A DNA stretch of 64,000 nucleotides from Geminicoccaceae bacterium (GTDB lineage: Bacteria > Pseudomonadota > Alphaproteobacteria > Geminicoccales > Geminicoccaceae). Shown here one piece after another: positions 2,841-28,183 of this stretch. The translations under genes and the position numbers were made by a program. Each line of letters starts with the position of its first letter. Position 1 is the first letter of the stretch. The notes beneath the pieces are model-generated. The model saw only the letters and a list, made by a program, of their open reading frames with translations, was not told where the DNA came from and did not search any database. The stretch spans positions 1 to 64,000 of the forward strand of contig JANQNY010000086.1 in assembly GCA_028279345.1 (NCBI GenBank), written 5' to 3'.

Positions 2841-4337
2841 TCAGAGGAGTAGCGCGCCCAACAGGAGGCCGGCGACGAGCCACAGGAGCGGCTGCAACCG
2901 GCGGCGGCGTTCGTTGCGGCGTTGGCCGTGCTGGGCCAGCGCCAGGACGGCGTCGGTCTCGCGGATGAGGCGCGGCAGGCGCTCGACCATATCGCGCGCA
3001 TCGTCGGCCACCCTTCGCGCCGCGCCCACCACGCCGAGATGCGTGGCGATCCACTCCTCGACGAGCGGCTGGGCGAGCTGCCACATGTTGACCTTGGGAT
3101 TGAGTGCGCGGCCGACGCCCTCGGCGACCAGCATGGTTTTCTGCAAAAGCAGCAGGTCCGGCCGCGCGCGCATCTCGAAGGTGCCGGCGACCTCGAACAG
3201 TTGGCCCAGCAGTCGTCCGACCGAGATCTCGTTCTGTGGCAGCCCCATGATCGGCTCGGCCATGGCTCTGAGCGCCTGCGAAAGGGCGCCGCGGTCGACG
3301 TGGTCCGGAACCAGCCCGCCTTTCACGAGCACGTTGGCCAGTCGCATGTAGTCGCGGTCGAGAAACACGACCAGCAGCTCGCCCAAGAAGAGCCGCGTCG
3401 GCAGGTCGAGCCGCCCCATGATCCCGTAGTCGACGGGAATGATCGTGCCGTCCGGTTGAACGAACACGTTACCCGGATGCATGTCACCGTGAAAGAAGCC
3501 GTGCACGAACACCTGGGTGAAGAAGACGTGCGACGCGCACTCGAGCACTTCTTCCGGGTTGATGGCGGACGCGCGCAATCGGTCGGGCTCGTCCGTGGGG
3601 ATCCCTTGGACCCAGTCGAGCGTGAGCACGCGCCGACCGGTGAGCTGCCAGTCGACCGCCGGCACCCGGAACTTGTAGGCGTCCTTGTTGATCTCGCGGA
3701 ATTCGTCGCATGCGGCCGCTTCCAAGCGCATGTCGAGCTCGCGGCGAGTGGTCTCGGCGAACACTCGGACCGCCGCCTCTGGTCGTAGCCGATCGCTCAA
3801 CGGCAAGAGCAGGTCTGCCAGAGACGCAGCGAAGGCGAGGAAGCGGAGGTCCTGCTCGATCAGTCGCTCGACGCCTGGGCGTAGGACCTTGACCGCCATT
3901 TCGCGGCCGTCGGTGGTCGTCGCGTGGTGGACCTGGGCGATCGACGCTGCGGCGACGGGTGCGCGGTTGAAGCTCTCGAAGGCCTCCTCCAGCGGCAGAC
4001 CCAGGGCGGCCTCGATGGTTGCCACCGCTTCATCGCCGGGGAACGGGGGAAGATCGTCATGCAGGGTCGCCAGGTCTTCGGCCACCTGCTGGCCGACAAG
4101 GTCGGCGCGGGTGCCAAGGCTCTGGCCGAGCTTGACGAAGATCGGGCCCAGGTCGATGAGCGCCTGCGCCAGCCGCTCACCCGGACGGCCGGGTGCCGAT
4201 GCGTTGTTGATGCGCTTTAGGAGGCGCCGTTGCCAGCGAGGGATCGGATAGTCGTCGATGAACAGGATCGCGCCATGCCGGCCGAGCGTGCGGACGACCG
4301 TGATCGCACGCCAGACGTGGCTGGGCATTGCGAGCAC
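2841..4337 (-). CDS. ubiB: UbiB atypical kinase of ubiquinone synthesis
   Basis: An ADCK/UbiB-family protein needed for ubiquinone production; it is an atypical protein-kinase-like ATPase, not itself a hydroxylase. Visible family marks: the KxGQ motif at residues 69-72 (KLGQ, followed by SLGTRADL), the Ala-rich loop AAASIAQVH at 129-137, ATP-binding lysine in MAVKVLRPG near 150, catalytic HGDMHPGN at 283-290 and metal-binding VDYG at 302-305. The last 20 residues are a hydrophobic helix, as in bacterial UbiB, which anchors it to the inner membrane. It starts 6 nt after ubiE, so the two are one operon. Confidence 0.95.
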   Translation of the reverse strand: MLAMPSHVWRAITVVRTLGRHGAILFIDDYPIPRWQRRLLKRINNASAPGRPGERLAQALIDLGPIFVKLGQSLGTRADLVGQQVAEDLATLHDDLPPFPGDEAVATIEAALGLPLEEAFESFNRAPVAAASIAQVHHATTTDGREMAVKVLRPGVERLIEQDLRFLAFAASLADLLLPLSDRLRPEAAVRVFAETTRRELDMRLEAAACDEFREINKDAYKFRVPAVDWQLTGRRVLTLDWVQGIPTDEPDRLRASAINPEEVLECASHVFFTQVFVHGFFHGDMHPGNVFVQPDGTIIPVDYGIMGRLDLPTRLFLGELLVVFLDRDYMRLANVLVKGGLVPDHVDRGALSQALRAMAEPIMGLPQNEISVGRLLGQLFEVAGTFEMRARPDLLLLQKTMLVAEGVGRALNPKVNMWQLAQPLVEEWIATHLGVVGAARRVADDARDMVERLPRLIRETDAVLALAQHGQRRNERRRRLQPLLWLVAGLLLGALLL

Positions 4338-7236: not shown

Positions 7237-7681
7237 ATCGGCGCAGCGCCGCTGCGCGTTGGCTTCTAGACCACTTATCAGTCACCCCCTGTTGGTAACG
7301 TGTGCACAAGGCCGGGCAATATAGCCTTTTGTTCTTTAGCTACAATTTTACAGATTTTAGGCGACTGCTGTTCCCTTTTCAGCCCACTTGCTGGTCCGCT
7401 CCGACAGGGTCATAAGGGTTTGAGTGGCACGGGAGTCCGCCAGTTACTTCGCTAGAGATCGCCTTTGCTTGAAAAGAATGATGAAAAGTCGCGGAAATTC
7501 GCTGGTTTTGTCATCATCGTCTAGGTTGCATGGTCAGAACGGTCCGGCCATGCTGGCGACCTACAGTGACGCGGCCGTCGAGGTACAGTACGGACGCGAA
7601 TGCTCGAAGGAGCGTCCCGGTCGCGTGGAAGATATTGGCGTTGGTGACTCCGCCGGACGTTTTTTTGGAGCGGGAGAGACG
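7237..7681. promoter_or_regulatory. rpsT-dnaA intergenic region: dnaA leader and possible origin-type features
   Basis: A 445-base stretch holding no convincing gene. Seen in it: TGTGCACAA at 7301-7309, one mismatch from the DnaA box on the opposite strand; an AT-rich run at about 7320-7365 with TACAAT at 7341-7346; GANTC (CcrM methylation) sites at 7235-7239, 7433-7437 and 7646-7650; and a T7 run just before the dnaA Shine-Dalgarno. A single imperfect box is not enough to call oriC. The dnaA frame stays open back to 7424, but nothing in that extension resembles DnaA. Confidence 0.45.
7241..7257 (+). terminator. Possible rpsT terminator hairpin
   Basis: A 6-bp perfect stem GCGCAG/CTGCGC with a 5-nt loop lies 4 nt after the rpsT stop. 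It is followed only by a mixed GTTGGCTTCT, not a clean U-run, so intrinsic termination is uncertain. Confidence 0.35.
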
Positions 7682-9082
7682 ATGCTCGTGACAGCTGTCA
7701 ATGAACTCGAGCAACAGTGGCGTGCGGTGCGGGACGCGTTGCGGGACGAAGTTGGCGACGCGGCGTATAGCACTTGGCTCGAGCCGTTGGTGGCGGCTGA
7801 GGTCGATGGCGACAGAGTGGTCATTGGCGCCCCGACCCCATTTCTCCGCGACTGGGTGATGCAACACTACGCAGATCGGATTCGTTCGGTTTGGCAGCAC
7901 GTCAACCCACAGGTCCGGCGTGTGGCGCTAGACGTCCGCAAACATGCCGTGGCGCCGGTCGTCCGTCCGCCCGCCCCGCCGCCGAACGCCTCGGTCGCAC
8001 CGGCTATCCGCCCGGCGTCCGATGGTGCGGCCCGCTCGCATCCGCTGATCGAGGACTATTCCGCACCGATCGATCCTCGGTTTACGTTCGACAACTTCGT
8101 CGTCGCCAAGAGCAACGACTTCGCCTTCGCCGCGGCGAAGCGTGTTTCCTCCGCCGACCGGCCGCCCTTCAATCCGCTGTTCCTCTATAGTGGGGTTGGC
8201 TTGGGCAAGACGCATCTGATGCATGCGATCGCCTGGGAGATTCGCCGCCAGGATCCTGATCGTCGTATCGTCTACTTGTCCGCCGAAAAGTTCATGTACC
8301 AGTTCGTCCGCGCGCTGACGACCAACTCGACGCTGAGCTTCAAGGATCTGTTTCGCTCCGTCGATCTCTTGATGGTCGACGATGTTCAGTTCATCGGCGG
8401 GAAGAACAATACACAGGAAGAGTTCTTCCATACCTTCAACGAGCTGATCGAGCGTGGCTCGCAGATCGTGATCTCGGCGGATCGGAGCCCGTCGGACCTG
8501 GAGGACTTGGAAGAGCGGGTGCGGTCGCGCCTCTCCTGGGGGCTGGTCGCCGACATCCATCCGACGACGTACGAGCTCCGCCTCGGCATTCTCCACAGTA
8601 AGGCGGCACGCATGCCCAACGTGGTGGTGCCCGACGAGTTGTTGCAGTTCCTCGCCGAGCGAATCACGTCGAACGTCCGGGAGCTCGAGGGAGCGCTCAA
8701 TCGGGTCGTGCACCAGAGCACGCTCCTTGGCCGGCCGTTGACGCTCGACGTGGCGCAAGACGTGCTCCGCGATGTGCTCAGAGCCAATGAGAAGCGCATC
8801 ACGATCGAGGAGATCCAGAAGGCGGTCGTCGCGCACTATAACCTCAAGCCTGCGGACATGCAGTCGAAGCGCCGCTCGCGTGTCGTCGCGCGGCCGCGTC
8901 AAGTGGCGATGTACCTCGCGAAGCAGCTGACGCCGCGCTCGCTGCCCGAAATCGGGCGACGGTTCGGCGGCCGCGATCACACGACGGTCATGCATGCGGT
9001 GCGTAAGATCGAGGAACTGATGGGCGAGGACGATTCGATCCTGCGCGACGTCGACGCACTCCGTCGGCGGCTCCAGGGTTGA
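7682..9082 (+). CDS. dnaA: Chromosomal replication initiator protein DnaA
   Basis: Binds DnaA boxes and melts the origin. I start it at ATG 7682, preceded by GGAGCGGGAG, giving 466 residues; domain I then begins properly (NELEQQWRAVRDALRDEVG, followed by YSTWLEPL). A proline-rich linker covers about 91-125. The AAA+ domain has Walker A GVGLGKTH at 171-178, Walker B DLLMVDDVQF, and sensor/arginine-finger region LEERVRSRLSWGLV. Domain IV carries the DNA-binding signature GGRDHTTVMHAVRKI near residue 430. The frame is open upstream to a GTG at 7424, but those 86 residues are not DnaA-like. Confidence 0.97.
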   Translation: MLVTAVNELEQQWRAVRDALRDEVGDAAYSTWLEPLVAAEVDGDRVVIGAPTPFLRDWVMQHYADRIRSVWQHVNPQVRRVALDVRKHAVAPVVRPPAPPPNASVAPAIRPASDGAARSHPLIEDYSAPIDPRFTFDNFVVAKSNDFAFAAAKRVSSADRPPFNPLFLYSGVGLGKTHLMHAIAWEIRRQDPDRRIVYLSAEKFMYQFVRALTTNSTLSFKDLFRSVDLLMVDDVQFIGGKNNTQEEFFHTFNELIERGSQIVISADRSPSDLEDLEERVRSRLSWGLVADIHPTTYELRLGILHSKAARMPNVVVPDELLQFLAERITSNVRELEGALNRVVHQSTLLGRPLTLDVAQDVLRDVLRANEKRITIEEIQKAVVAHYNLKPADMQSKRRSRVVARPRQVAMYLAKQLTPRSLPEIGRRFGGRDHTTVMHAVRKIEELMGEDDSILRDVDALRRRLQG

Positions 9083-9127
9083 TGCCCGGCCGAGCCCCTT
9101 AAAAACCGCTGGCATCGGCGAGAACTC

Positions 9128-9136
9128 TGCTATGCT
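9128..9136 (+). promoter_or_regulatory. dnaN: Possible extended -10 element of a dnaN promoter
   Basis: In the 150-base dnaA-dnaN gap, TGCTATGCT reads as an extended -10 (TGn plus TATGCT) about 97 nt upstream of the dnaN ATG. The -35 candidate CTGGCA at 9109-9114 is weak. This is pattern matching only. Confidence 0.25.
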
Positions 9137-9232
9137 CCTCATCCGCCGGCGCGACGGTTCGTCGGCGGCCCAAACCCGGGTCGGTTCTGCCGCACCCGAT
9201 AGAGAGATGTCATCGAGGATCTCCCGCCGACG

Positions 9233-10344
9233 ATGCAGGTCAACATCGAACGGTCCGACTTCCTAGCGATCCTCAGCCACGCACAGAACGTGGTGGAACG
9301 TCGGACGACGATCCCCATCCTTGGCAATGTCAGGCTCGATACCGCAGAGGGACGCTTGAACCTGACGGCAACCGATCTCGAGCTGACGTTGCACGAGGCG
9401 GCCAAGGTCGAGGTTCTGCGAGCGGGCAGCACCACGTTGCAAGCGCACCGTCTGTTCGATGTCGTGCGCAAATTGCCGGAGGGTGCTCAGGTTCAGTTGG
9501 CCGTCGATGCCGATCGCTCCGAGGCACGGATCTCCGCCGGGCGCAGCATTTTCGATCTGCCGACGCTGCCGGCCGGCGACTTTCCGTCGACCAGCGCCGA
9601 CAGCTTCGAGCGCAGCTTCAAACTCGGCGCTCAGGACCTCGCCCGGCTCATCGACAAGGCGCGTTTCGCGATGTCGACAGAGGAGGCGCGCTACTATCTC
9701 AATGGCCTCTTCCTGCACACCGTTGAGAACGGTGGAGCCGAAAAGCTCCGCGGCGTCGCCACCGACGGGCATCGCCTCGCGCGTGTCGAGATCCCGCTGC
9801 CCGAGGGGGCCGCTGGCATGCCGTCGATCATCATCCCCAGAAAGGCGGTTGCCGAGATCCGGAAACTCATCGACGGTGCCGAAGACCTGCATGTCTCGCT
9901 GTCTGCAAGCAGGATCCAGGTACGTGTTGGCGAGGCGACGCTGCTTTCGCGCCTCATCGACGGCACCTTCCCCGATTACGAGCGGGTCATCCCGCAGGGC
10001 AACGACAAGCGGGCCGTCGTCGATCGTGACGCCTTGAGCCAGGCGGTCGATCGGGTGTCGACGATCGCCACGGAGAAGACCCGCGCCGTCAAGCTGTCGT
10101 TCAAGAGTGGCCGCATGACCGTGTCCGCGATCAGCTCGGAGGCCGGACGCGGTCAGGACGAGCTCGACGTCGCCTTTTCCGACGCACCGATCGAAATCGG
10201 CTTCAACGCGCGTTACATCCTGGAAATGTTGCAGCAGATCTCCGGAGATCACGTGGAACTGGAGATCGCGAGCCCGTCGCAGCCCACACTGGTGCGCGAC
10301 CCCGGTGACGCCGGCACGGTCTACGTGCTCATGCCGATGCGCGT

Positions 10345-10348
<4 letters not shown>
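9233..10348 (+). CDS. dnaN: DNA polymerase III beta subunit (sliding clamp)
   Basis: Forms the ring clamp that tethers DNA polymerase III and other repair proteins to DNA. The 371-residue length equals three clamp repeats. Conserved segments include RRTTIPILGNVRL near residue 22, ATDLEL, and FAMSTEEARYYLNGLFLH in the middle repeat, RLIDGTFPDYERVIP at the start of the third, and the C-terminal VYVLMPMRV that ends nearly all DnaN proteins (usual form YVLMPMRL). The stop overlaps the recF start. Confidence 0.97.
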
Positions 10349-13897
<3,549 letters not shown>

Positions 13898-18141: not shown

Positions 18142-18366
18142 CCCGGCTCGATATGGCCGCCCGATGCCGACGGAGCGTTGGCGGGCGGTCATGCGCCGTG
18201 GTTGGACCCAAACGCGCGCGGCGTGAGCGCAGCCCGAATGCGACTGTCGTCGATGCGACGCACGTGCCCCGGGGGTATTGCCGAACGGCCGTGAGCATGA
18301 AAGACCAAGGCGGCGTTGACGCGCTCGCCAATCGAGCGCCAAGCCGAACGAGGGAGGGCTTCATCC

Positions 18367-19212
18367 GTGAGCGATTCCGAAACGCCGATCCTGCGCCTGG
18401 TGGAAGAGGTCCCGCACGCCCTGAACCACTCGGACGCATTTGAAGCTGCTTTAGCAGGGCGCCGCCCAGCGGTGTTTCTGGACTATGACGGCACGCTGAC
18501 ACCGATCGTGCAGCGGCCGGAGCTCGCTATCCTCTCCGACCGTGGCCGCCAGGTGGTGTCGGAGCTGGCGACGCGGCTGCCGACCGCGGTGGTGAGCGGT
18601 CGCGACCGTCCCGACGTCGAACGTCTCGTGGCACTCGACGAGCTCACCTATGTTGGCAGCCATGGCTTCGACATCGTCGTTCCGGGCGGGCGGCAGGTCG
18701 ACAATCCCATCGCCGGTGATTTCACACCGCTGCTCGACGAAGTCGAGGCGAAGTTAGTGGAAGGGCTCGGCCCGATTCCGGGTGCGCAAGTGGAGCGAAA
18801 AAAGTTCTCCATCGCGGCACACTATCGAAATGTCGCCGATGCCGACTATGCGCGTTTCCGCGAAGTTCTCGATGGCGTCGTTAACGATCACGATGGCATC
18901 AAGGAAAAAACCGGCAAGAAGGTCTTCGAGCTGCAGCCCAAGCTGGATTGGGACAAGGGCAAGGCGGTGCTCTGGTTGCTCGAGGCATTGGAGATCAACC
19001 ACAACGACGGTGTGCCGATCGACGATATCGTGCCGATGTTCTTTGGCGACGACGTCACGGACGAGGATGCCTTTGGTGCGCTTCAAGGTCAGGGCCTTTC
19101 GGTCATCGTTTCAGACCGCGAAGACGAAGGCACCGGCCGCCGTACGGCCGCCAGCTTTCGCGTCTACGACACCGAGGAGTTGTTGACCCTGCTCGAGCGC
19201 CTCAAACCTTAG
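18367..19212 (+). CDS. otsB: Trehalose-6-phosphate phosphatase
   Basis: HAD-superfamily phosphatase converting trehalose 6-phosphate to trehalose. Motif I is [12 protein letters not shown] (nucleophile Asp in DYDGT, near residue 39), motif II lies in AVVSGRDR, and motif IV is [12 protein letters not shown] near 226. The GSHGFDI and [15 protein letters not shown] segments are typical of OtsB. I use GTG 18367 (281 residues) because it is preceded by GAGGGAGG; the frame is open further up. otsA is not in the window, whereas a GH65 gene follows by 72 nt, suggesting linked trehalose or related disaccharide metabolism. Confidence 0.93.
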
Positions 19213-19284
19213 CGCCGCGGCAACGGAAGTACGTTCCTCCTGGGCACCGAGGTGCCTCAATGGCTTGGATGGGGAGACCGCGCG

Positions 19285-21711
19285 ATGGGCGACTGGAGCC
19301 TGAGCTACGACGCCTACGACCCCAAGGCACAGGGGCTGCGCGAGGCGCTATGCACCCTGGGCAATGGGAAGTTCTGCACGCGCGGCGCGTTCGCCTTCGA
19401 ATCGGCTGGCGACGTGCACTATCCGGGCACCTACTTGGCGGGTGGCTACAACCGTTTGGCGACGCCGATCGCGGACCGCGAGGTGGTCAACGAAGACCTC
19501 GTCAACTTCCCGAACTGGCTCTGCCTAACCTGGCGCCCCGTCGACGGGGCGTGGTTCGCGGTCGACGCAGTCGAGGTACTGGCGTTTCGCCAGGAACTGG
19601 ATCTGCGCCAGGGGTTGTTGACCATCGAGTTGCGGGTGCGCGACGACGCCCAGCGTGAGACCCAGCTCGTCGAGCGGCGCCTCGTCAGCATGGCGAACCC
19701 GCACTTGGCGGGCATCGAGCTGCGCATTACGCCGCTCAACTGGTCGGGCTCGATCGAGGTCGCCTCGGCACTGGACGGACGCGTCATCAACTACGGTGTC
19801 AAGCGCTACCGCGACCTCGCCAGCCACCACCTCAACGTCATCGACTGTGGCCACTTCCTGGGTGAGCTTGCCGGCGAGAACATGATCTCGCTCCTGGTCG
19901 AGACCACGCAGTCGCGGCTGGTGGTGGGTGAGGCGGCACGTACGCGCCTCTTCCGTGATGGTCGGCGTCTGGATGCTCAGCCGACCGCGAAGGACGAGCC
20001 GAACTTCCCGCGCCAGGTCTTCGCCTTCGGCGGGCACGAGGGTGAGGAGACCCGCGTCGAGAAGGTGGTAGCTCTTTACAGCTCGAAGGACAGCGCCATC
20101 TCGGAGCCAGGCGTGGCGAGCCGCGAGCTGGTTGACGAGGCACCGGACTTCGACGTGCTGCTGGCGCAGCACGCGCGCGCCTGGGCCGGCTTGTGGCGGC
20201 GCTGCGATGTCGAGACGGTGAGCGACGAGCCGGACATGCAGATGATCGTGCGACTGCACATCCTGCAGCTCCTCCAGACGACCTCGCCACACACGATCGA
20301 CGTCGACGCCGGCACGCCAGCGCGTGGCTGGCACGGCGAGGCCTATCGCGGGCACGTCTTCTGGGACGAACTCTACATCCTGCCGTTCCTCGACAACCAC
20401 TATCCGGAGATCGCCAAGGCGCTCCTGCGTTATCGTGGTCAGCGGCTCGAGAAGGCGCGCTCGGCCGCCGCGCACGCCGGTCACCAGGGGGCGATGTACC
20501 CCTGGCAGAGCGGCAGCGACGGTCGCGAAGAGAGTCAGATCATGCACCTCAACCCGCAGTCGGGACGGTGGGTGCCGGACTACAGCTGGCAGCAACGTCA
20601 TGTGAATCTGGCGATCGCCTACAACATGTGGGCGCACTATCAGATCACCGGCGACCGGGCGGCGCTCGAAACGGGCAATGCCGACGTCATCGTCGAGATC
20701 GCACGGCTGTTCGCATCGCTCGCCAGTTGGAACCCCGATCGCGAGGGCGGCCGCTACGAGATCCACCAGGTGATGGGTCCGGACGAGTTCCACGAGGCCT
20801 ATCCCGATTCGGAAGAGCACGGCCTCAAGAACAACGCCTACACCAATGTCATGGTGTCATGGCTCATGGAGACCGCGCTCGAGGTGATCGACACGCTCGA
20901 CGACGAGCCGCGCGCCGACCTCCTGATGCGCCACGACATTACCCAGGAGGAGCGCGACCTCTGGGAGACGATGAGCCGGCGGATGTACGTGCCGATCCAC
21001 GGCGACAACATCGTGAGCCAGTTCGAGGGGTATGGCGACCTGCTCGAGTTCGACTGGGAGGGGTATCGCGCCAAATATCCCAGCATCCAGCGCCTCGATC
21101 GGATCCTCGAGGCCGAGGGCGATACGGCCGACCGCTACAAGCTCGCCAAGCAGGCCGACATGCTGATGCTCTTCTACCTGTTCGACGAGCCGACGGTCGA
21201 GGCGCGGATGCGGCGGCTGGGCTACGAGCTGCCTGACGGCTGGATGGACGCCAATATCAACTACTACCTCCACCGCACGTCGCACGGGTCGACGCTGAGC
21301 TTTCTCGTGCATGCCTGGGTCCTGGCGCGGCACCGCCCAGAGGAGGCATGGGAGTATTTGCTGAAGGCGCTGAGCAGTGACGTTAGCGACATCCAGGGCG
21401 GAACGACCGCGGAAGGTATCCACTTGGGCCTCATGGCCGGCACCGTCGATCTCATCCAGCGGGGCCTCACCGGGCTGCAGGTGCACGACGACAAGCTGGT
21501 CTTCGACCCGCGCCTGCTCGGCTCGCTACGGAAGATCAGCACGCGCCTGCAGATCTTCAGGCACTGGGTCAGCATCGAGGTCACGCCGGATTCGCTGACG
21601 CTCGAGTTCGACGAGCGTTGGCGGCGCCGGGCGGACCGCATTGCCGTCGACGTTCGGGGCAACATGACTGAATTCGAGCCGGGCGTTCGCAAGACCGTCG
21701 CGCTGAGCTGA
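19285..21711 (+). CDS. Glycoside hydrolase family 65 protein (disaccharide phosphorylase type)
   Basis: A 808-residue GH65 enzyme. The N-terminal beta-sandwich begins LSYDAYDPKAQGLREAL and holds GNGKFCTRGAF and YPGTYLAGGYNR, typical substrate-pocket motifs. The (alpha/alpha)6 catalytic domain has RGHVFWDELYILPF and the general acid Glu501 in QVMGPDEFHE; phosphorylases bind phosphate in the later HRTSHGSTLSFLVHA region, where the HGSTLS wording is present here, favouring a phosphorylase over a hydrolase. The substrate (trehalose, maltose, kojibiose, nigerose or a phosphate ester) cannot be read off. Start ATG 19285 follows GGATGGGGAG; the frame extends 11 codons upstream to GTG 19252. Directly downstream of otsB. 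Confidence 0.88.
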   Translation: MGDWSLSYDAYDPKAQGLREALCTLGNGKFCTRGAFAFESAGDVHYPGTYLAGGYNRLATPIADREVVNEDLVNFPNWLCLTWRPVDGAWFAVDAVEVLAFRQELDLRQGLLTIELRVRDDAQRETQLVERRLVSMANPHLAGIELRITPLNWSGSIEVASALDGRVINYGVKRYRDLASHHLNVIDCGHFLGELAGENMISLLVETTQSRLVVGEAARTRLFRDGRRLDAQPTAKDEPNFPRQVFAFGGHEGEETRVEKVVALYSSKDSAISEPGVASRELVDEAPDFDVLLAQHARAWAGLWRRCDVETVSDEPDMQMIVRLHILQLLQTTSPHTIDVDAGTPARGWHGEAYRGHVFWDELYILPFLDNHYPEIAKALLRYRGQRLEKARSAAAHAGHQGAMYPWQSGSDGREESQIMHLNPQSGRWVPDYSWQQRHVNLAIAYNMWAHYQITGDRAALETGNADVIVEIARLFASLASWNPDREGGRYEIHQVMGPDEFHEAYPDSEEHGLKNNAYTNVMVSWLMETALEVIDTLDDEPRADLLMRHDITQEERDLWETMSRRMYVPIHGDNIVSQFEGYGDLLEFDWEGYRAKYPSIQRLDRILEAEGDTADRYKLAKQADMLMLFYLFDEPTVEARMRRLGYELPDGWMDANINYYLHRTSHGSTLSFLVHAWVLARHRPEEAWEYLLKALSSDVSDIQGGTTAEGIHLGLMAGTVDLIQRGLTGLQVHDDKLVFDPRLLGSLRKISTRLQIFRHWVSIEVTPDSLTLEFDERWRRRADRIAVDVRGNMTEFEPGVRKTVALS

Positions 21712-24605: not shown

Positions 24606-25274
24606 TCAGTTGGTAGGGCCGTAGTGCATGAGGCGGGCGTAGCCGCCCGCCAATTCTTGTCTCGTTAGTGGTGCGCCCGTTTCAGCGACGAGCCGCGCCA
24701 GCGTTGCGCGGGGGGCGTCGGTAGGATGGACGTGAAAGCTCGCCAGCCAACGCATCAGCGCCCAGCGCGCAGGCGTTGGAAGCCTCTCCATCAAGCCAAA
24801 GTCGACCACGTGCAGCCGTCCGGCCGGGGCAAGCGCAGCGTGGGCGCTGGTGATCGCCGCTTCGGGGTCGTCGATCATGGAGAGCGCGTAGGAGAAGACG
24901 ATGCGATCGAAGCCGTTCGGACGATCGAACAGCCGACGTTCCGAACCCTCGCCGGCGAGGCCGAAGGCGAGGCCGATTCGCTCGTCCAGGCCCGCGGCGC
25001 CCACTTTGGCGCGGGCTACGTCCAGCATGCTCTGCGATGCATCGAGGCCGAACAGCTTCGTCCCGGGGTAGCGCCTGGCAATCGCGATGAGGTTGCGCGC
25101 CGTGCCGCAGCCGATCTCCAGGAGGGTCTCGTCTGGGCGGACGTCCAACTCGTCCACTAGGCGGTCGCGACCCCACAGGTAGTATTTGCGCGACAGGTCG
25201 TAGAGATGCCGCTGCCAGCGGTACATCCGTTCCATGCGCGCCGCGGCATCGGCCGTCGTCCCGGCGTTGCTCAC
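24606..25274 (-). CDS. btaB: DGTS synthesis N-methyltransferase BtaB
   Basis: SAM-dependent methyltransferase that converts diacylglyceryl-homoserine to the betaine lipid DGTS by three N-methylations. The 222-residue protein begins near MERMYRWQRHLYDLSRKYYLWGRDRL, the stretch that distinguishes BtaB from other class I methyltransferases, then has the SAM motif LLEIGCGTARNLIAIA and FGLDASQSMLDVA. Its GTG start overlaps the btaA stop (GTGA), so the two are translationally coupled. The identification rests on both sequence and this pairing. Confidence 0.9.
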   Translation of the reverse strand: MSNAGTTADAAARMERMYRWQRHLYDLSRKYYLWGRDRLVDELDVRPDETLLEIGCGTARNLIAIARRYPGTKLFGLDASQSMLDVARAKVGAAGLDERIGLAFGLAGEGSERRLFDRPNGFDRIVFSYALSMIDDPEAAITSAHAALAPAGRLHVVDFGLMERLPTPARWALMRWLASFHVHPTDAPRATLARLVAETGAPLTRQELAGGYARLMHYGPTN

Positions 25275-26485
25275 GCAGCACTGCGTTCGTAGAGGTGGAA
25301 CCCACCGTAGACCGCCGAACGATCCGCCTTGAAGAATTCGGGGCTGCGCTCCGCGTCGTAGCGCCACTGCGCCAGGAGGTCTGACGGCAAATTCGCTTCG
25401 AGGATCGATTCGGCGCCTGCCGTTCTGAAGATGACCTTGGCATCGGCGCTCGACGTCCGGCTCACCTCGGTCCAGAGCTCGTTGAGCTGGGCAGGGCTCA
25501 TCCAGTCCTGCGCATCGAGGAACACGTAGCGATCGTAGCTCGACGCAGGCACTTGGCGGAGGTGGTCGACGAGCAGGGTGTGCAGAACCTGGACCCTTTC
25601 CGCGCGCGGCTTGATCCGCTCGTAGACTTCCGCCTTGAGATAGGGGGGCACGGCCTGGCGACGCTCGACGTCGTAGCGCCGAGCGAAGGCCTGCCAGGCG
25701 AAGTAGTTGTCCTCAAGGTCGAAGTCGCAAGCCAGCCGACGGACGCGCTCGCGAATCTCCGCCGCCGGCTCGCTGCCGTTGGCGTGCAGCGACCGGTACT
25801 GCGCCGGTGGAATGCCGAGGCCGTAGTAGGCGGCCTTGAGGCGGGCGAGGCGTCGAATGGCGCCGTGGTCGAAGACGGGGGCGAGATGCTCCTCGAAGAA
25901 GCGGAGCTGCTCGTCGCGCGTCCGTGCCTCGATCATCGAACGCGGGCGCCCACCGAAAACGCGCGCGGTCATGTGCGCCGAGCGGATCGTGCGCCCCAGC
26001 AGCGATCGTCCGAAGAGACCCCGTCGGAACAGCTCGATCCGGCGCCCTCGAAAGGGGCGCGCGTCGTCCCAGTAGGCGCGGGTTTCGTCGTCGAGCAAAC
26101 CGCGTAGCTGGCGATCATAGGCGACGACGTTGTCGGCGTGGTTGCCCTCGCCAAAGAAGCGGAAGAAGCTCTCGTGGTCCGGAAGGTGCTGGAGGGCTAC
26201 GAGCTTGAGGCGCGTGAGCGCCACGTGGGCCGGGTTCAGGTCGACCGCTGTCACCAGGGCCGGATCGCCATCCAGATAGTTGAAGACGTTGCAACCGGCG
26301 GACGCGATCGTCAGGATCCGCTTGCCTTCGAGCGGCGCCATCGCCGCCATGTCGACAGCGGGGTCCTCCCAGATCTGGTTGTAGACGAAGCCGTCGAACG
26401 ACCAGGTGAAGAGCTGCTCGGCCAAGCGGTCCCGCCGGCGTTTCGGACGCTGTAAGGCGGCGGTTTCCAACAGAGCGTTGGGCAT
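25271..26485 (-). CDS. btaA: S-adenosylmethionine:diacylglycerol 3-amino-3-carboxypropyltransferase BtaA
   Basis: Transfers the aminocarboxypropyl group of SAM to diacylglycerol, making diacylglyceryl-homoserine, the first step of DGTS synthesis. The 404-residue DUF3419 protein has LFTWSFDGFVYNQIWEDP at 26-43, the SAM-site strand RILTIASAGCNVFNYL, AVDLNPAHVALTRLK, and near the C-terminus YDRYVFLDAQDWMSP. These are hallmarks of BtaA. ATG 26485 is used. The product lipid is an electrically neutral, phosphorus-free substitute for phosphatidylcholine. It lies between the PlcP-like gene and btaB with 45 nt and -4 nt spacing. Confidence 0.94.
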   Translation of the reverse strand: MPNALLETAALQRPKRRRDRLAEQLFTWSFDGFVYNQIWEDPAVDMAAMAPLEGKRILTIASAGCNVFNYLDGDPALVTAVDLNPAHVALTRLKLVALQHLPDHESFFRFFGEGNHADNVVAYDRQLRGLLDDETRAYWDDARPFRGRRIELFRRGLFGRSLLGRTIRSAHMTARVFGGRPRSMIEARTRDEQLRFFEEHLAPVFDHGAIRRLARLKAAYYGLGIPPAQYRSLHANGSEPAAEIRERVRRLACDFDLEDNYFAWQAFARRYDVERRQAVPPYLKAEVYERIKPRAERVQVLHTLLVDHLRQVPASSYDRYVFLDAQDWMSPAQLNELWTEVSRTSSADAKVIFRTAGAESILEANLPSDLLAQWRYDAERSPEFFKADRSAVYGGFHLYERSAA

Positions 26486-26530
26486 ACGGCAACAATCCTC
26501 GTGCGCGCCCGTTCGCGGCGGGCTTTCTTG

Positions 26531-27352
26531 TCAGCGACAGACGTGAAGACGAACGCCGGATGCGTCGACCGTTGCATAGTGCGACGGGCAGCGTGTCCAG
26601 CAGCCCGTATTGACGTATTCCAACGGCGAATCCGACCCCGTCATTCGCTCGTGTAGCGCGTTATGCGTATGTCCGCAAAAGATGACCTGCGCGCCGCGGT
26701 CGCGCGCTAGCGACAGCGCTCCCCGACGTACCCTGACGGACAGGCCGCGTAGGCGCTTGTGACGCTGGTCCGTCGCCGGAGCGCGCCCATAGCCAAGTCG
26801 CCGCTGGGCGAACGACAGGAGCCCGCCACCGACCTCCGTAAGCACCGGGTGGCGGGTCAACAGCCGATCGAAGCGGTCGCCATGCACGGCCAAGTGGTTT
26901 CGGCCGTGCGATTCCCACGTGTAGATCTCGCAGACGTCCACGCCCATCAGGTGAGAAGCCACTTGCGCGGCCTTGCGGTCGTGGTTGCCGAGCACCCAGA
27001 CCACCTCCACCTGCCGCTTGGGATTGGAGAGCTTACGGACGTGCGACAGCAGCGCCCAGTGGTCCGCATTCAGCCGGTCGAAATTCAGGTCGTGGAAGAT
27101 GTCGCCCAGCAGGATGAGCCGCCGGAAGCGCCAGGCCCTCAACGTGTCGAGCAAAGCGGCGGCACGGCTCGTCGGCAGGCCCAGGTGGAGATCCGATACC
27201 ACCATGGTCTCCGCGTGGGTTGGGGCGACGGTCGAGAACGTCTGGCCGATCGAGGCCGTGTCGGGCAAGGTCGCACCTCGTTGCGCACTGGCCGCCGCAG
27301 GCGGGCGGGTATGGCCGGGGCGTAGATGACGTGTGTGCGCATTGCGTGACAA
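26531..27352 (-). CDS. Metallophosphoesterase, PlcP-like phospholipase C candidate
   Basis: A calcineurin-like phosphoesterase of the UDP-2,3-diacylglucosamine-diphosphatase family: metal motifs SDLHLG (residues 53-58), LGDIFHD, LGNHDR, AVHGDRFD and CGHTHNA. Sinorhizobium PlcP belongs to this family and removes the head group of phosphatidylcholine to give diacylglycerol, the BtaA substrate. Here the gene directly precedes btaA-btaB, so PlcP is more likely than the lipid A enzyme LpxH. That is inference from context. The start is uncertain: TTG 27352 gives 273 residues with a low-complexity N-terminus; ATG 27205 (preceded by GGAGACC) would give 224 and begin right at the domain. Confidence 0.75.
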   Translation of the reverse strand: MSRNAHTRHLRPGHTRPPAAASAQRGATLPDTASIGQTFSTVAPTHAETMVVSDLHLGLPTSRAAALLDTLRAWRFRRLILLGDIFHDLNFDRLNADHWALLSHVRKLSNPKRQVEVVWVLGNHDRKAAQVASHLMGVDVCEIYTWESHGRNHLAVHGDRFDRLLTRHPVLTEVGGGLLSFAQRRLGYGRAPATDQRHKRLRGLSVRVRRGALSLARDRGAQVIFCGHTHNALHERMTGSDSPLEYVNTGCWTRCPSHYATVDASGVRLHVCR

Positions 27353-27439
27353 GTGCTTCGACCTAGGTCGCCGCGCACGTGAGCTTGGCGCTCCCGAACG
27401 AAACGCCTACGCCTGAGAGGTTTGGACCACGAGGTGCTG

Positions 27440-28183
27440 ATGGCGGACCCGACGCTGGGCGTCGTCTTTGTTGCCGCCTTGATAACCGCCGTCGCCACTG
27501 GCATCGGGGCGCTGCCGCTGCTGGTTGCTAGGCGCGTGAGCCGTCGCTGGCTCGGACTCGCGAACGCCGTGGCCGCAGGGCTCATGCTTGCGGCCTGCCA
27601 CGCGCTCATCGTCGAGGGTTTCGGGTTCAATCCGCTGCGCACCGTGGCCGGTATCGTCCTGGGCTTGGTCTTCATCGTTGCCGCGGGCCAGGTGCTGCGC
27701 CGCCACGACCGACTTGAGATCGCCGAGGTCAAGGACGCCGATGCGCGTCGCATCGTGCTGATCATCGGCATCATGACGCTGCACTCTGCCGCCGAGGGGA
27801 TCGGCGTCGGTGTCGCGTATGGCGGCGACGAGGCACTCGGCAGGTTCATCACGGCGGCGATCGCGTTGCACAACATTCCGGAAGGCCTCGCGATTGCCCT
27901 CGTCATGGTGCCGCGCGGAGCGTCGGTGGCGAACGCGGCCGGCTGGAGTATTGTCTCGAGCCTCCCGCAGCCATTGCTGGCCGTCCCCGCCTTCGTCCTT
28001 GTTGCGGCCTTCGTGCCTTTGTTGCCTTTGGGGCTCGGCATCGCGGCCGGAGCGATGATCTGGATGGTCTTCGCCGAGCTCATGCCGGAGGCGAATGAGC
28101 GGGTGTCTCCCGCGATGGTGGGAATCGCCGTGACGCTCGCCTTTGCCGCCATGCTCAGTCTGCAGATGCTGTTCGCCGGCTGA
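27440..28183 (+). CDS. ZIP-family divalent-metal transporter
   Basis: A 247-residue multi-pass membrane protein that imports (or moves) Zn, Fe or Mn. Eight hydrophobic helices are readable. The metal-binding pattern of helices IV and V is present as LHSAAEGIGVG and ALHNIPEGLAIAL, the classic ZIP signature HN-PEG. A histidine-containing loop between helices III and IV is short (LRRHDRLEIAEVK). ATG 27440 has GAGG upstream; TTG 27422 would add 6 residues. It diverges from the plcP-like gene across about 87 bases. Confidence 0.9.
   Translation: MADPTLGVVFVAALITAVATGIGALPLLVARRVSRRWLGLANAVAAGLMLAACHALIVEGFGFNPLRTVAGIVLGLVFIVAAGQVLRRHDRLEIAEVKDADARRIVLIIGIMTLHSAAEGIGVGVAYGGDEALGRFITAAIALHNIPEGLAIALVMVPRGASVANAAGWSIVSSLPQPLLAVPAFVLVAAFVPLLPLGLGIAAGAMIWMVFAELMPEANERVSPAMVGIAVTLAFAAMLSLQMLFAG

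Follow-up and report, generated by a model that had tools for sequence, protein, structure and literature searches.

Sebastian et al. (2016; PMC4796936) gave the name "type 1" to clusters of marine bacteria in which btaA and btaB follow plcP, and found that Phaeobacter with its canonical plcP deleted no longer made DGTS. Canonical PlcP requires manganese, as cited in PMC8231724, and in Sinorhizobium meliloti SMc00171 has been named as a phospholipase C (PMC3596328). PlcP is a marker gene for judging bacterial membrane remodelling under scarce phosphate, and the BLAST criterion for PlcP in the literature is an E-value below 1e-40 to the PlcP of MED193.

The window (the whole stretch of 64,000 nucleotides analysed here, from a Geminicoccaceae bacterium) has a phosphoesterase gene, btaA and btaB in the same order as the type 1 cluster of Phaeobacter sp. 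MED193, with the same proposed chemistry, and many members of the family studied here have Pho-box-like sites. Since the type 1 cluster has been published, which the earlier note does not mention, the architecture is not new. The locus differs in that its phosphoesterase comes from a separate clade and its host family is not one of marine Rhodobacterales. What is new is a separate PlcP-like lineage that would serve the first step of the pathway in one bacterial family. We found no paper in the open-access literature tying Geminicoccaceae to betaine lipids, nor one joining btaA or betaine lipids with the word metallophosphoesterase.

The comparison with S. meliloti is closest for the two later enzymes, BtaA and BtaB being about 50% and 44% identical, respectively, and the phosphoesterase belongs to the same superfamily as PlcP; however, some 390 kb separate plcP from btaA in the record of S. 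meliloti, whereas the genes are adjacent in the window, and the identity of the S. meliloti PlcP to the window protein is no higher than about 27%. Our reference for this PlcP, L033, was taken as SMc00171 from its AHL synthase and LuxR neighbours, which are presumably sinI and sinR. The record concerned, CP090106.1 (L033, L034), is labelled as S. meliloti plasmid pSymB, yet it spans 3.7 Mb with chromosome-type genes and is probably mislabelled.

Organization of the locus

The earlier note had read this region (24606-27352) as a three-gene lipid-remodelling operon. All three frames are open on the minus strand, with the phosphoesterase at 26531-27352, btaA at 25271-26485 and btaB at 24606-25274; the genes are as described, and the reading as a lipid-remodelling operon is well supported. 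The 45-nt gap between the phosphoesterase stop codon (26531-26533) and the ATG of btaA (26485) is there, as is the 4-nt overlap, GTGA, of the btaA stop TGA (25271-25273) with the GTG of btaB (25274-25272). The phosphoesterase frame is indeed open back to 27352, but the TTG at that position is a doubtful start, with homology beginning near 27223-27205; judged by sequence, the better choice is likely to be either TTG 27268, with GAGGTG a short way before it, or ATG 27205. The features of the locus are the following.

26531..27268, minus strand: divergent PlcP-like metallophosphoesterase, a putative phospholipase C that would release diacylglycerol (PF00149/PF12850, motifs, own clade, PlcP profile)
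25271..26485, minus strand: btaA, predicted SAM:diacylglycerol 3-amino-3-carboxypropyltransferase (DUF3419; PF11899)
24606..25274, minus strand: btaB, predicted N-methyltransferase making DGTS (methyltransferase domains, identity to S. meliloti BtaB)
27269..27421, no strand: intergenic region common to the operon and the divergent ZIP gene; probable operon promoter
27422..28183, plus strand: ZIP-family metal transporter, divergent; membership of the system uncertain (PF02535)

The btaA gene is present as a single copy in the window genome, and its product matches PF11899 over the full length of the profile (E 4e-99; protein residues 27-400, profile positions 7-384 of 385). The alignment of BtaB with its S. 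meliloti counterpart covers 222 aa and starts at the first residue, in support of the GTG start. By sequence, there is nothing unusual in either protein as a relative of the DGTS enzymes of S. meliloti. In another genome (G012:C542:1514-2624) the btaA match is split (profile positions 4-164 and 237-384), which points to a frameshift, an error of sequencing or divergence in the middle part.

Very probably, the three genes let the bacterium exchange phosphorus lipids for a phosphorus-free betaine lipid. In the route we infer, the metal-dependent phosphoesterase would cut the headgroups of phospholipids, PC, PE or PG being candidate substrates, to yield diacylglycerol, to which BtaA would add a homoserine group from S-adenosylmethionine; BtaB would then methylate this product three times to give DGTS, and the replacement would free phosphorus for other use. 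Diacylglycerol could also come from other phosphatases.

Distribution among genomes

The nearest relative with a name is a Geminicoccaceae MAG (L007), on which the placing of the window's organism rests. Our family sample comprised 31 genomes of the order, all from one Geminicoccaceae-like family. btaA is found in 17 of them, and every one of the 17 has either a phosphoesterase of the window type or a canonical PlcP: the window type lies directly beside btaA in 15, and the remaining two (G018 and G026) have canonical PlcP (E < 1e-94). Among the 14 family genomes lacking btaA the window type occurs once (G023) and canonical PlcP not at all. The co-occurrence of phosphoesterase and btaA gives a Fisher p of 7e-8, not corrected for relatedness; as the genomes are related, such values are guides rather than probabilities. 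Phosphoesterase, btaA and btaB are linked in 15 family genomes, counting that of the window, and the linkage is therefore neither an assembly accident nor chance.

Among btaA carriers the window type and canonical PlcP are near-perfectly complementary. Exclusivity is not absolute, since G027 encodes the window type together with a homolog on the PlcP side of the tree; this protein, L097 (G027:C245:959-1753), shares 36% identity with the PlcP of S. meliloti and represents a third kind of phosphoesterase.

In the class sample (289 genomes of Alphaproteobacteria), canonical PlcP was found outside the family in 26 of 27 btaA carriers, compared with 75 of 259 genomes without btaA; the window type was absent outside the family in this sample, and from the other 397 genomes of the phylum sample. 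A search of contigs with a single phosphoesterase sequence returned four relatives, and searches of plasmids for the phosphoesterase gave only canonical types of about 30% identity. Relatives with 35-40% identity occur in metagenome-assembled genomes of Patescibacteria and Dadabacteria (L008, 3218-3916; L009; L010, 17-583), possibly through horizontal transfer or binning error. These genomes have no btaA, so that a link of this phosphoesterase family with DGTS does not hold everywhere, and such homologs, together with that of G023, imply that the enzyme may work on a different substrate.

Neighborhoods of the cassette

In G021, G022 and G025 the cassette is flanked by gap and pgk; in G003 gap was seen in the stretch read, and in G005 pgk. 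In G023 the phosphoesterase gene stands alone between gap and pgk (L126, G023:C11:76000-84500, near 3547-4224); this genome is 99% complete and without btaA, and it looks as if btaAB was lost and the phosphoesterase retained. The window genus and a sister genus have the intact trio next to the ZIP metal transporter gene, which adjoins the phosphoesterase in L012 and L013/L007; no other family locus read showed the two side by side. Canonical plcP occurs in the same kind of cluster: the order in G018 is btaA, btaB and canonical plcP (3' of btaB), and G090, which does not belong to the family, has canonical plcP first, then btaA and btaB. The G018 arrangement suggests that either type of phosphoesterase can fill the role.

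Identity of the phosphoesterase

The SDLHLG and GNHD motifs pointed out earlier are present in the phosphoesterase, as are GDI, HGD and GHTH, and the metal ligands DxH, GD, GNHD, HGD and GHxH are invariant or nearly so (alignment A1). LpxH, the UDP-2,3-diacylglucosamine hydrolase of the lipid A pathway, has the same metallophosphoesterase fold and is the best structural match to the predicted model (Z 16.8; mean pLDDT 76), although likeness of fold does not show function, and members of the superfamily are often annotated under the LpxH name. The cap region of the model has pLDDT below 50, and we therefore make no claim of a lipid-binding cap. That the protein is itself LpxH, with btaAB beside it by chance, is barely credible: it reaches 28.1 bits with the LpxH model PRK05340, whose curated cut-off is 134; LpxH sequences carry GNRDF and have Cys/Asp substrate residues after HGD, whereas the window protein has GNHDR and HGDRFD; and LpxH forms a separate clade in the tree. 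A search for a true lpxH elsewhere, proposed by the earlier note, gave no match to PRK05340 in the whole window genome; the genome has LpxI, an enzyme commonly used by Alphaproteobacteria. On profile score, motifs, clade and the presence of LpxI we rejected the LpxH identity. The absence of a second LpxH had previously been regarded as telling against PlcP, but that reasoning was incomplete, because LpxI covers this step of lipid A synthesis; the absence does not count against PlcP, and would have misled.

Profile comparison relates the window type more closely to PlcP (E 2.8e-33) than to LpxH (E 5.3e-13), and its clade is, on sequence, the closer to PlcP. In two maximum-likelihood trees the window-type phosphoesterases form a clade of their own with 100/100 support. 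The suggested phylogeny against PlcP and LpxH thus places them outside the LpxH clade but not with canonical PlcP, and the description of the protein as a PlcP of the Sinorhizobium family gives way to membership of a distinct sister clade. A fast-evolved PlcP orthologue is possible, and we entertain it tentatively; it would have the same function and differ only in ancestry. The nearest profile is that of PlcP, the metal ligands are identical, and the gene neighborhood follows the same logic; yet the stem branches between the clade and canonical PlcP are very long (1.9-3.2 changes per site), no canonical sequence branches near the clade in either tree, window-type relatives are found in other phyla, and the ordinary canonical PlcP of G018 and G026 means that a single family contains both types. 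A phosphatase from a different pathway (one acting on nucleotide or sugar phosphates, for instance), brought close to btaAB by insertion into a gap-pgk glycolytic cluster, would account for the position of the cassette in several genera, for the lone gene of G023 and for the homologs without btaA in other phyla; we consider this unlikely, given that the window genus and its sister keep the trio intact at another site, beside the ZIP gene, and given the tight co-occurrence with btaA and the complementarity with canonical PlcP.

Our preferred reading, which we hold to be probable, is that of a DGTS operon whose first enzyme is a divergent sister of PlcP, occupying the post of PlcP as the source of diacylglycerol in this family. 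If this sister enzyme does the job of PlcP in Geminicoccaceae-like bacteria, surveys based on PlcP miss it. With S. meliloti PlcP (rather than MED193 PlcP) as the query, the window protein was recovered at 7e-15, and the window type would probably be missed at the cut-off used in the literature; it is also likely that such proteins are wrongly given the names of lipid A enzymes. Since the cassette comes with canonical PlcP in G018 and with the window type in the others, nature has in effect exchanged the enzyme within one family, and the chemistry of the first step can be tested directly. A broader proposal, to which we give even weight for and against, is that a family of phospholipase C distinct from PlcP, and so far unrecognised, took over the supply of diacylglycerol for betaine lipids in one alphaproteobacterial family; the same enzymes in genomes without btaA would feed other phosphorus-free lipids, and surveys of canonical PlcP would then undercount remodelling.

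Promoter region and phosphate control

Using a Pho-box model of three units with 11-bp spacing, scored against control windows, Pho-box-like repeats were seen upstream of the phosphoesterase in about 10 of 16 family members, at about the top 6% of control windows; several of these members belong to one genus. Scans of the window promoter and of a same-genus relative gave no significant Pho box. The intergenic region of the window has one TTGTCAC half-site (27352-27346). The same-genus locus L012 has this half-site at much the same distance, which is no more than suggestive; among the 21-mers common to the two upstream regions the best is another stretch, at -285/-295 from the motif, and not the half-site. 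PhoB is encoded in the window genome, above cut-off, and phoB adjoins a pst-phoU cluster, in which pstS is preceded by a Pho-box-like site (gene names are from order and sequence). Given the repeats in relatives, the presence of PhoB and a window promoter in which no significant box was detected, control of the operon by PhoB is plausible, and phosphate starvation may induce it.

Elsewhere in the window, translations point to a row of dnaA, dnaN, recF and gyrB at 7424-13897, so that the replication origin region is probably nearby, and at 18316-21711 a trehalose-phosphatase-like gene is followed directly by a gene for a GH65 glycosidase/phosphorylase.
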